From an uncultured Oscillospiraceae bacterium (lineage in GTDB: Bacteria; Bacillota; Clostridia; Oscillospirales; Oscillospiraceae), in assembly GCA_944385035.1 (NCBI GenBank), contig CALWVV010000005.1, forward strand, positions 1 to 64,000: DNA of 64,000 nt, in the 5' to 3' direction. Below, in pieces: positions 42,618-45,061 of this stretch (within the stretch, counting starts at the first letter, position 1; the number at the start of each line of letters is the position of its first letter). The notes below the pieces were generated by a model. It was not told the DNA's origin. It did not search any database and worked only from the letters and a program-made list of their open reading frames with translations. A program made the translations under genes and the position numbers.

Positions 42618-42647
42618 TTATTCTTCGTCCAGCTTGAGTACTGCCAT
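42618..42647 (-). repeat. Truncated lepA-tail copy (last ten codons)
   Basis: On the minus strand this reads [13 protein letters not shown], identical in protein to the end of LepA. It diverges upstream of the Met codon. One codon differs synonymously (GAA for GAG). It lies 153 bp before the next copy. The intervening 123 bp (42648-42770) differ from the 157-bp spacer but are also palindrome-rich (for example CCCGCCAAA with its complement TTTGGCGGG). Confidence 0.85.
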
Positions 42648-42770
42648 GGCGTCGAAGCAAAGTCCGCTTTGCGCCCAATGCCCGGACGGGCATTGCTTGC
42701 GGCGCTTCCTTGCTTCTCCTTTTCCCGCCAAACCCGCTGCGCTGGGCTTTGGCGGGAGGGCCGCCTGCCT

Positions 42771-43011
42771 TTACTCCTCGTCCAGTTTGAGGACGGCCAT
42801 AAAGGCTTCGGTGGGCAGCTGAACGGTACCCAGGGTACGCATTTTCTTCTTGCCTGTTCCCACACGGACCAGTCCGTGTGGGCTCCCTCTTTTTTCAATG
42901 CTCGGGCGGAAGTGAATTCCGCCCTGCGCAAATTCTCCGCTTCGCTCCGAATTTCCGGCGCAAGCGCCGCCCCGCTGTGCGGGGCCCCGAGGAAGGCAGA
43001 AGAAAATGTTT
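42771..43011 (-). repeat. lepA-tail repeat unit B (84-bp tail plus 157-bp spacer)
   Basis: Positions 42771-42854 encode, on the minus strand, the same 27 residues plus stop as the true LepA C-terminus ([12 protein letters not shown] to LKLDEE). Six third-position differences are present, all synonymous. The spacer 42855-43011 contains five hairpins, including CCCACACGGAC/GTCCGTGTGGG and GGGCGGAA/TTCCGCCC. It differs from the next spacer at only two positions. Confidence 0.9.
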
Positions 43012-43252
43012 TTACTCTTCGTCCAGCTTGAGTACTGCCATGAAGGCCTCAGTGGGCAGCTGAACGGTACCCAGGGTACGCATTTTCTTCTTGCCTGTTC
43101 CCACACGGACCAGTCCGTGTGGGTTCCCTCTTTTTTCAATGCTCGGGCGGAAGTGAATTCCGCCCTGCGCAAATTCTCCGCTTCGCTCCGAATTTACGGC
43201 GCAAGCGCCGCCCCGCTGTGCGGGGCCCCGAGGAAGGCAGAAGAAAATGTTT
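43012..43252 (-). repeat. lepA-tail repeat unit A (84-bp tail plus 157-bp spacer)
   Basis: Positions 43012-43095 repeat the LepA tail with three synonymous third-position differences from the genuine end. The spacer 43096-43252 runs up to the genuine lepA stop. The period of 241 bp is exact between the genuine tail, unit A and unit B. Confidence 0.9.
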
Positions 43253-45061
43253 TTACTCCTCGTCCAGCTTGAGTACTGCCATAAAGGCCTCAGTGGGCAG
43301 TTGAACGGTACCCAGGGTACGCATTTTCTTCTTGCCTTCCTTTTGCTTCTCCAGCAGCTTCTTCTTTCGGGTGATATCACCGCCGTAGCATTTGGCCAGC
43401 ACATCCTTGCGCATGGCCTTCACCGTTTCACGGGCAATGATCTTGCCGCCGATGGCCGCCTGGACGGGCACCTCAAAGAGCTGGCGGGGAATGTTCTCCT
43501 TCAGCTTCTCGCAGATCCGCCGGGCACGGGGATAGGCCTTCTCCCGGTGGACAATAAAGCTCAGGGCGTCCACCTGGTCGCCGTTGAGAAGCAGGTCCAC
43601 CTTCACCAGGTCGCTCTTCTCATAGCCCTCCAGCTCATAGTCCAGGGAGGCATACCCCTTGGTGCGGGCCTTCAGGGCGTCAAAGAAGTCGTAGATGATC
43701 TCTCCGATGGGCATGGAGTAGTGCAGCTCCACCAGGTTGGTGTCCAGGTACTGCATATCCTTAAAGATGCCCCGGCGCTCCTGGCACATGGGCATGATGT
43801 TGCCCACATAGTCCGGGGGAGAGATGATAGATACTTTGGCATAGGGCTCCCGTGCCTCGGCAATGGAGCCGGGATCGGGGTAGTTGTGGGGGTTATCTAC
43901 CCGAACGACAGTACCATCTGTTTTGGTTACCTCGTATATTACAGAAGGTAATGTGGTAACCAGGTCCAGATCAAATTCACGCTCCAGCCGCTCCTGAATG
44001 ATCTCCATATGGAGCATGCCCAAAAAGCCGCAGCGGAAGCCGAAGCCCAGGGCTACGGAGGACTCGGGCTCAAAGGAGAGGGAGGCGTCGTTGAGCTGAA
44101 GCTTTTCCAGGGCGTCCCGCAGGTCGGGGTACTTGGAGCCGTCCTCGGTGTAGATGCCGCAGTAGACCATGGGCTGGGCGGGACGGTAGCCAGGGAGGGC
44201 TTCGCCGGCGGGGGACTCCACTCCGGTGATGGTGTCGCCCACCCGTGTGTCCTTGACGTTTTTGATGGAGGCGGTGAACCAGCCTACCTCGCCGGCGGTC
44301 AGCTCCCCGCAGGACTCCATGCCCAGGGGCTTGAGATAGCCGCAGTCCAGCACCTGGTAGCTGGCCCCGGAGGCCATCATCTTTACGTTCATTCCCTTTT
44401 TCAGGGTGCCTTCCATAATGCGGAAGTAGACGATGACGCCCACATAGGGGTCATACTGGCTGTCAAAGACCAGAGCCTTCAGGGGGGCGGCGGAGTCGCC
44501 GGTGGGGGCGGGGATGTTATGGACAATGTCCTCCAGCACCGCCGGGATGTTGATGCCCATTTTTGCGGAGATCTCCGGGGCGTCCTGGGCGGGGAGGGCA
44601 AGGATGTTCTCCACTTCCTCCTTCACCCGCTGGGGGTCGGCGGCGGGCAGGTCGATCTTGTTGATGACGGGCAGGATCTCCAGGTCGTGCTCCATGGCCA
44701 GGTAGGTGTTGGCCAGGGTCTGGGCCTCGATGCCCTGGGAGGCGTCCACAATGAGCACCGCACCCTCGCAGGCCGCCAGAGAACGGGAGACCTCGTAGTT
44801 GAAGTCCACATGGCCCGGAGTGTCGATAAGATTGAGGTGGTAAACCTCTCCGTCCTGGGCCTTGTAGTCCAGGCGGACGGCACGGGCCTTGATGGTGATG
44901 CCCCGCTCCCGCTCCAGGTCCATGTTGTCCAGCAGCTGGGACTCCATCTGCCGCTCGGTCACCGCGCCGCACAGCTCAATGAGCCGGTCGGACAGGGTGG
45001 ATTTGCCGTGGTCAATGTGGGCGATGATAGAAAAATTACGGATTTTGGATTGATCAGTCAT
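43253..45061 (-). CDS. lepA: Elongation factor 4 (LepA)
   Basis: A 602-aa ribosome-associated GTPase thought to back-translocate or remodel stalled ribosomes and assist 30S biogenesis. G1 is AHIDHGKST, then [16 protein letters not shown] and NKIDLPAA. The EF-G-like domains and the LepA-specific C-terminal domain follow, ending [21 protein letters not shown] and LKLDEE. Length is normal for the family. The ATG follows GGAGGATCTAACCT, 25 bp after the XRE gene, so the two are probably cotranscribed. Its last 28 codons are copied downstream in a palindrome-rich array. Confidence 0.97.

Follow-up and report, generated by a model that had tools for sequence, protein, structure and literature searches.

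What has multiplied the 3' end of lepA in the genome of an uncultured Oscillospiraceae bacterium? In the window, by which we mean the whole 64-kb stretch of DNA analysed here (contig CALWVV010000005.1, positions 1 to 64,000), the end of this gene recurs immediately downstream of it. Read along the lepA strand, the locus is ordered lepA, U, g, A, D1, g, A, D2, B, D3 (30 bp) and terminator, and consists of the following parts:

43253..45061, minus strand: complete open reading frame of 602 amino acids, presumably lepA, a name taken from the preliminary description and from recognition of the protein
43253..43336, minus strand: U, the present lepA 3' end (last 27 codons plus stop codon), joined to the gene
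43232..43249, minus strand: g1, 18 nt located 3' of the stop codon, its complementarity read by eye
43096..43231, minus strand: first copy of element A, with covarying hairpins (fold and alignment)
43012..43095, minus strand: D1, second copy of the lepA end, with three third-position differences from U
42991..43008, minus strand: g2, the counterpart of g1 in the second unit
42855..42990, minus strand: second copy of element A
42771..42854, minus strand: D2, third copy of the lepA end, encoding the same protein sequence as U
42648..42770, minus strand: element B, belonging to a family other than A and ending in ...GACTTTGCTTCGACGCC
42618..42647, minus strand: D3, truncated 30-bp copy of the lepA end, immediately before the terminator
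42581..42610, minus strand: intrinsic-terminator-like hairpin with T-run closing the array (by eye and fold)

Repeat comparison and TRF, which finds this as the sole tandem array of the window (period 241, 96% match, score 1066), both confirm the array of lepA ends with a 241-bp period reported in the preliminary description. The full tails of 84 bp each (43253-43336, 43012-43095 and 42771-42854) are spaced by 241 bp, the other two being 92-93% identical over 86 nt to the copy at 42770. All three encode the identical 27-residue C-terminus and, as also noted there, thus restore the end of LepA. The description of the spacers as 157 bp long holds for the two at 43096-43252 and 42855-43011 but not for 42648-42770, which is occupied by a different element of 123 nt. 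Hence, the array is composed of two element types, A twice and B once, rather than of one. The 157-nt spacer region folds with -77.4 kcal/mol (z -5.05 versus shuffles, none of 200 being as good) and the third spacer is likewise structured, a z value of -4.39 being obtained for the stretch around 42648-42770 including the terminator. As read by eye and apart from one missing base, g1 matches the reverse complement of the lepA sequence spanning the left edge of the duplication.

Related genomes reveal that the lepA site is variable. A search with the region matched A plus a second lepA tail in eight of 119 relatives, among which short contigs may conceal further filled sites. Another 23 lepA ends were read over 440 nt; 21 of them are devoid of a second tail, and that of genome G012 (L042) carries B only. 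The lepA end of G025 (L028) harbours an insert of a third hairpin type, distinct from both A and B, which is followed by a copy of about 27 bp of the lepA end. Since relatives are filled, empty or otherwise occupied, the site is polymorphic, with zero, one or several units, which is the variation among strains that the preliminary description had named as support for a mobile element. The close relatives G027 and G047, which are 99% alike over 300 nt of lepA upstream of the tail, differ at infB, where G027 is filled and G047 empty. In G027 the D copy of infB and the sequence downstream of it match the empty site of G047, while U ends in foreign codons, of a type shared with U of other filled genomes. 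The match to the empty site indicates that D is the displaced native end and that U arrived at least partly with the element.

Several further features of these gene ends deserve mention. At infB two distinct junctions occur, about 85 bp (L106 type) and about 46 bp (L138/L149/L203 type) from the gene end, and each of the two has a g of its own; a gene read as leuS likewise shows two junctions (L054; L240/L213/L188). In G013 (L115, about 1738-1960) a 46-aa open reading frame (MTDKQFKGF...) without any Pfam match is located between two infB end copies instead of A or B. A similar small open reading frame follows infB in L116, L124 and L132, with no second tail in the 1 kb read. A half-element at infB in G011 (L112) is accompanied, by eye over 1 kb, by neither a second tail nor an enzyme.

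Neither A nor B is confined to lepA, A-like and B-like copies being present at other places of the same genome and in other genomes, as the preliminary description had anticipated for the spacer of a mobile element. A is found in 39 of 64 genomes of the genus, reaching at least 52 copies in one genome; G010, G020 and G038 contain 43, 11 and 10 copies. The exact pattern of its core occurs in at least 119 stretches of GTDB contigs and in four stretches of viral contigs. Taxon names, taken from 80 of the at least 119 GTDB stretches, include among the matches listed Flavonifractor, Pseudoflavonifractor, Intestinimonas, Oscillibacter, Lawsonibacter and Evtepia, further hosts among these matches being other Oscillospiraceae and unnamed Clostridiales, Bacillota or uncultured bacteria. 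The four viral contigs stem from IMG/VR (L255-L258), and L256 has the size and match position of the Pseudoflavonifractor record L148. In three (L003, L005 and L006) of seven other places read in the window's genome, the end of the gene preceding A recurs after the element, this gene being infB in L005, an ackA-like gene in L006 and apparently a phage-type gene in L003; relatives show duplicated ends of alaS (L039) and secA (L040). Taken together, the genes hit are presumably infB (two places), alaS, leuS, secA, ackA, uvrB, smc, groEL, rpsI, dgt and others, all host gene names having been recognised from peptide tails alone. Site polymorphism and the copies elsewhere support the earlier notion of a non-autonomous element at a gene end bringing a replacement end, yet the lepA end is not the attachment site, as many other genes are hit in the same way. 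We therefore dismissed lepA-specific attachment.

A and B are dispersed structured elements of Flavonifractor-like Oscillospiraceae which, in a REP-like manner, occur as palindromic repeats in many copies near gene ends. Both are about 115-140 nt in size and form several hairpins. In the alignment of 48 A sequences the hairpins covary, 10 of 18 consensus pairs being changed on both sides, and the alignment of 17 B sequences yields a covariance model with 35 pairs. Rfam, applied to eight loci with A or B, reports only tRNA and tmRNA genes above gathering scores, so that neither element matches a described RNA family in these loci, and this reading was set aside. On the reverse strand of B the tetranucleotide CGTC is invariant in 17 of 17 rows; it is given in PMC3733652 as one of two known REP tags. 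By eye, no GTAG or CGTC tag is visible at the ends of A in the 48-row alignment.

Some copies depart from the prevailing arrangement. One A copy (L041) duplicates, in place of a gene end, the start of a gene on the opposite strand, including start codon and ribosome-binding site. In three genomes (L007, L089 and L096) B immediately precedes the tmRNA gene ssrA, and its end coincides with or adjoins the first base of ssrA, which was identified by an Rfam match in L007 and by eye in L089 and L096. L002, L004 and L008 represent second-type A-like copies (...GCGGCTTTGCCGACCCCGAGCATT...) which lack a flanking duplication and have, on the 3' side, a long hairpin resembling a terminator; those in L002 and L004 adjoin tRNA genes.

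How regularly a duplication accompanies the element is apparent from a sample of A picked without regard to flanks, which comprised 126 matches in 123 loci (the at least 119 GTDB plus the four viral stretches) and from which 95 with 400 bp on both sides were kept and 31 dropped. A direct repeat with a score of at least 50 flanks 69 of the 95 copies, as opposed to 6 of 285 mismatched pairs, although the 69 duplications are not independent events because the same gene recurs in several species. The remaining 26 copies show no duplication at score 50. Where it does not run into a neighbouring A, the repeat measures about 30-130 bp and typically corresponds to the host gene end up to the stop codon. 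For B, repeats are present in 18 of 39 rows versus 14 of 191 controls, or in 17 of 38 without one locus that had entered twice (L049/L291), one copy having been dropped for short flanks; this control is inflated since several B copies share smc. In nearly all distinct cases the left junctions of B show, by eye, a pyrimidine before the duplication, several times a T before GG. The RAYT of E. coli reportedly cleaves at CT (PMC8266576).

Both copies of the gene end bear the marks of coding sequence. Differences between U and D are distributed over codon positions 1:2:3 as 28:20:129 in 36 insertions and as 8:7:51 in nine lepA loci, and this third-position excess implies that both copies evolved as gene ends; an internal stop is present in 2 of 36 D copies. 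Since D evolves as coding sequence we considered intron-like splicing, with g as internal guide and D as 3' exon. It was rejected in view of the lack of a conserved 5' splice motif and of the D copy at infB in G027, which is the native end of the empty site.

A further component is a segment g of about 10-21 nt, situated 3' of the stop codon and ahead of the first hairpin. It is complementary, in reverse, to the part of the gene that spans the left edge of the repeat and thus, to some extent, to sequence outside the repeat. Among 60 A insertions with a score of at least 50, a repeat of at least 30 nt and room for g, this complementarity (score of at least 20) is found in 43. The controls give 38 of 1175 for mismatched loci, 1 of 60 for a segment 70-130 nt upstream in the same gene and 0 of 60 when the same strand is compared. 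The other 17 insertions possess no clear g. The usual register reaches, with exceptions, from -3..-8 to about +4..+17, frequently with one mismatch or missing base. The g of B is weaker, being present in 8 of 19 rows versus 18 of 320 controls, which equals 7 of 18 loci, several of them at smc. In 30 of 35 distinct junctions having a clear g, a sense open reading frame has its stop codon near the right edge of the repeat, and for 27 of these 30 the distance between edge and stop codon falls in the range of -6 to +3 nt; the other five have no stop codon in the stretch searched, which extended from 22 nt upstream to 6 nt downstream of the edge. The 35 junctions share no strong common core site, PAM/TAM-like motif or 5' splice motif, their composition showing a weak preference for G at -3/-2. 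By eye, target and g change together between species at lepA and infB (GCGGCA/TGCCGC in L106, GCGGTA/TACCGC in L107), which suggests that pairing is maintained or renewed.

These junctions bear on the strongest competing explanation, a MITE-like element moved by another transposase, whose long and variable target-site duplications would form the repeats and for which g would be a snap-back copy of a 3' overhang. Such a snap-back should, by our reasoning, yield g in the right orientation and register, and identical flanking repeats in some A copies (L138, L149, L156 and L240) as well as the copy at a gene start in L041 would fit. A random staggered cut, however, would not place 27 of 30 right edges so close to a stop codon, the joint change of g and target speaks for pairing, and in L156 the sequence after the stop codon of U differs from that after the stop codon of D. 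We regard this explanation as rather unlikely. In L156, which has an rpsI-like end, U is followed by its own terminator-like hairpin and T-run, and g starts right after the T-run; it looks as if the copied gene end reached the 3' end of the transcript. Still less probable is local tandem duplication or template switching around hairpins in the absence of any dedicated mobile system. While the 241-bp unit of the window is itself duplicated (96%) and homologous recombination between tails can make arrays grow or shrink, the same element is combined with different gene ends at many loci, is present or absent in relatives and has its parts in fixed order and register. Local duplication thus probably accounts for the second A unit in the window only.

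The reading we prefer, movement of A and B by REP-associated tyrosine transposases (RAYTs), derives from genes located beside the elements. Weak Y1_Tnp matches led to proteins of about 160-210 aa, and eight out of eight match NCBIfam NF047646 (REP-associated tyrosine transposase, RAYT), although member 1 with a score of 74.2 falls under the curated cut-off of 80. The RAYT alignment finds matches in 34 of 64 genomes of the genus. Covariance models place A or B at 9 of 30 RAYT loci (A in four, B in five) versus none of 16 control loci (eight RT and eight canonical Y1), and at 7 of 28 if L289 and L290, the discovery cases of B beside a RAYT, are set aside. At six of the 30 loci the element is within 150 bp upstream of the RAYT. 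No inverted or downstream A or B is found within 1.5 kb of a RAYT, all copies being upstream and in the same orientation. Eight loci show the order gene end U, g, element, gene end D, RAYT; four of them (L319, L321, L322 and L323) were chosen because earlier coordinates adjoined, and g cannot be judged in L323 as the contig begins within U. The order uvrB, A, RAYT is seen in G011, G026, G023 and G015, with g read by eye, and the order smc, B, RAYT in G027, G011, G026 and G061. In none of the eight ordered loci is there a strong repeat of the tail or gap sequence after the RAYT. In a tree of 32 RAYTs those at smc form one weakly supported group (62/80) and those at uvrB another (97/98). uvrB-A and smc-B represent two candidate enzyme/element pairs.

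Across whole genomes the association is not apparent. The genome of the window (89.5% complete) yields no RAYT match, its smc locus reads U, B, D without a RAYT, and it contains one canonical Y1_Tnp. RAYT matches are present in 23 of 39 genomes with A and in 11 of 25 without A (Fisher p 0.31), a test on 64 genomes, many of them drafts, with RAYT clades pooled without separating cognate pairs. In the 16 of 39 A-bearing genomes lacking a RAYT match the enzyme may have been lost, overlooked or different. As none of RAYT, RVT_1 and Y1_Tnp correlates with A in the 64 genomes, we discarded all three as genome-wide markers of A. The RVT_1 result concerns a further explanation, a retro-element in which A/B RNA with its guide would undergo target-primed reverse transcription, the reverse transcriptase switching onto host mRNA. 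It would be in keeping with the structured, covarying, RNA-like nature of A and B and would explain the co-orientation, the end near the stop codon and the g after a terminator-like T-run in L156. The A-rich and nearly complete genomes G010, G020 and G038, however, have no RVT_1 match, reverse transcriptases beyond the reach of PF00078 aside, and with RVT_1 uncorrelated with A we hold this route to be improbable. Least credible is site-specific integration at the lepA end by the tyrosine or serine recombinase of an ICE or satellite, as first proposed, since, despite the replacement gene end and 83/84-bp site duplication of Tn5253 at rbgA (PMC8571831), many unrelated genes are hit, the 35 distinct junctions have no strong common core, spacers of 123-157 bp are too small for a recombinase gene between the repeats, the element has its own guide-like segment, and the local evidence favours RAYT-type transposases over an integrase-type att element.

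Returning to the RAYTs, we are fairly confident that A and B are elements of the RAYT/REP type. That they are non-autonomous, are moved by RAYTs and bring along a replacement gene end is the account towards which we lean, if by a small step. The array would then be a stack of insertions, A twice and B once, mobilised most likely in trans by a RAYT. An inserted unit would consist of the last 30-130 bp of the host gene, the stop codon, g and the palindromes, and would land inside the gene end at a junction complementary to g. The incoming copy would become the new end of the gene, pushing the old end (D) downstream. A guided single-strand route for this insertion, to which the analogy with IS608 leads, is plausible yet tentative. 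Here, g would base-pair with the target, exposed as a single strand, on both sides of the cut L|t1, much as the guide of IS608 pairs with its cleavage site, and the 3' end of the element would be joined to t1. With L|t1 as its left and element|t1 as its right boundary, a unit inserting next to L would automatically replace the gene end, and excision would restore it. Such a course of events could account for the gene-end copies, their coding-like evolution and their co-orientation with the gene, as well as for spread among species at the same junction and for stacking. It would apply to units already bearing a tail and a guide, the first gain of the tail and guide of a new gene lying outside its scope. 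In this account RAYTs would act on A and B, and g would serve as targeting guide. The complete picture of a RAYT-driven, DNA-guided "home and rescue" system of about 250 bp, in which 10-21 nt direct the element to one gene junction and a replacement end is supplied, remains doubtful.

The spread of REPs is described in PMC8266576 as poorly understood. The present insertions record such a process in gene ends of different age, a guide-like segment in consistent register and empty sites in relatives. Repeated gene ends in such genomes should, moreover, not simply be taken for assembly errors or pseudogenes.

Among known systems, REPs or REPINs with their RAYTs resemble A and B in being dispersed palindromes, often just downstream of genes and beside RAYT genes, and B may share with them, on its other strand, CGTC, which is a REP tag according to PMC3733652. 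In contrast, REPs measure 20-40 bp, as opposed to about 115-140 nt with several hairpins, and have neither a long target-complementary segment nor duplicated ends of many host genes. Moreover, inverted REPs flank the RAYT on both sides, unlike A and B, which, where seen, are only upstream, and A is devoid of a tag visible by eye. The CGTC repeats covered in PMC3733652 are reported there without a dedicated transposase, whereas B adjoins a RAYT. IS200/IS605 elements such as IS608 are, like the proposed RAYT system, based on the Y1 HUH family, and in IS608, according to PMC8266576, the cleavage site is paired with a guide that precedes the palindrome on its 5' side; g is likewise located 5' of the palindromes. 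The guides of IS200/IS605 comprise 4 nt in the same source, while g comprises about 10-21 nt, is specific for each gene site and belongs to a unit which includes the gene end. Known elements of this family have, according to PMC2817692, no larger target duplications, in contrast to the repeats of about 30-130 bp flanking A, unless these repeats are cargo as proposed. Furthermore, the spacers of A and B are too short for a Y1/HUH transposase, the RAYT being outside, after D, in the eight ordered loci.

CIMEs (cis-mobilizable elements) are flanked by att sites and derive from ICEs which use an integrase. The array resembles them in its several accreted units flanked by gene-end copies. The ICE Tn5253 shares with A and B the restoration of the host gene, in its case rbgA, by a site duplication of 83-84 bp, but according to PMC8571831 it is 64 kb in size, uses one target gene and has a conserved 11-bp core, none of which applies to A or B. 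Among the literature matches listed, judged by title and opening of the abstract in a set that does not extend to preprints, none describes a duplication of host-gene ends combined with a complementary segment of this kind. While REPs, RAYTs and guides as such are known, the nearest precedent being four cases, given in PMC2817692, of the 3' end of the rayt gene itself captured between REPs. Seemingly new, therefore, with respect to the matches listed are the duplication of a host gene end as a regular part of the insertion and the long, site-specific complementary segment, which, if the guide is real, would represent a long, site-specific DNA guide in an HUH system and would allow a mobile element to inhabit essential genes harmlessly.
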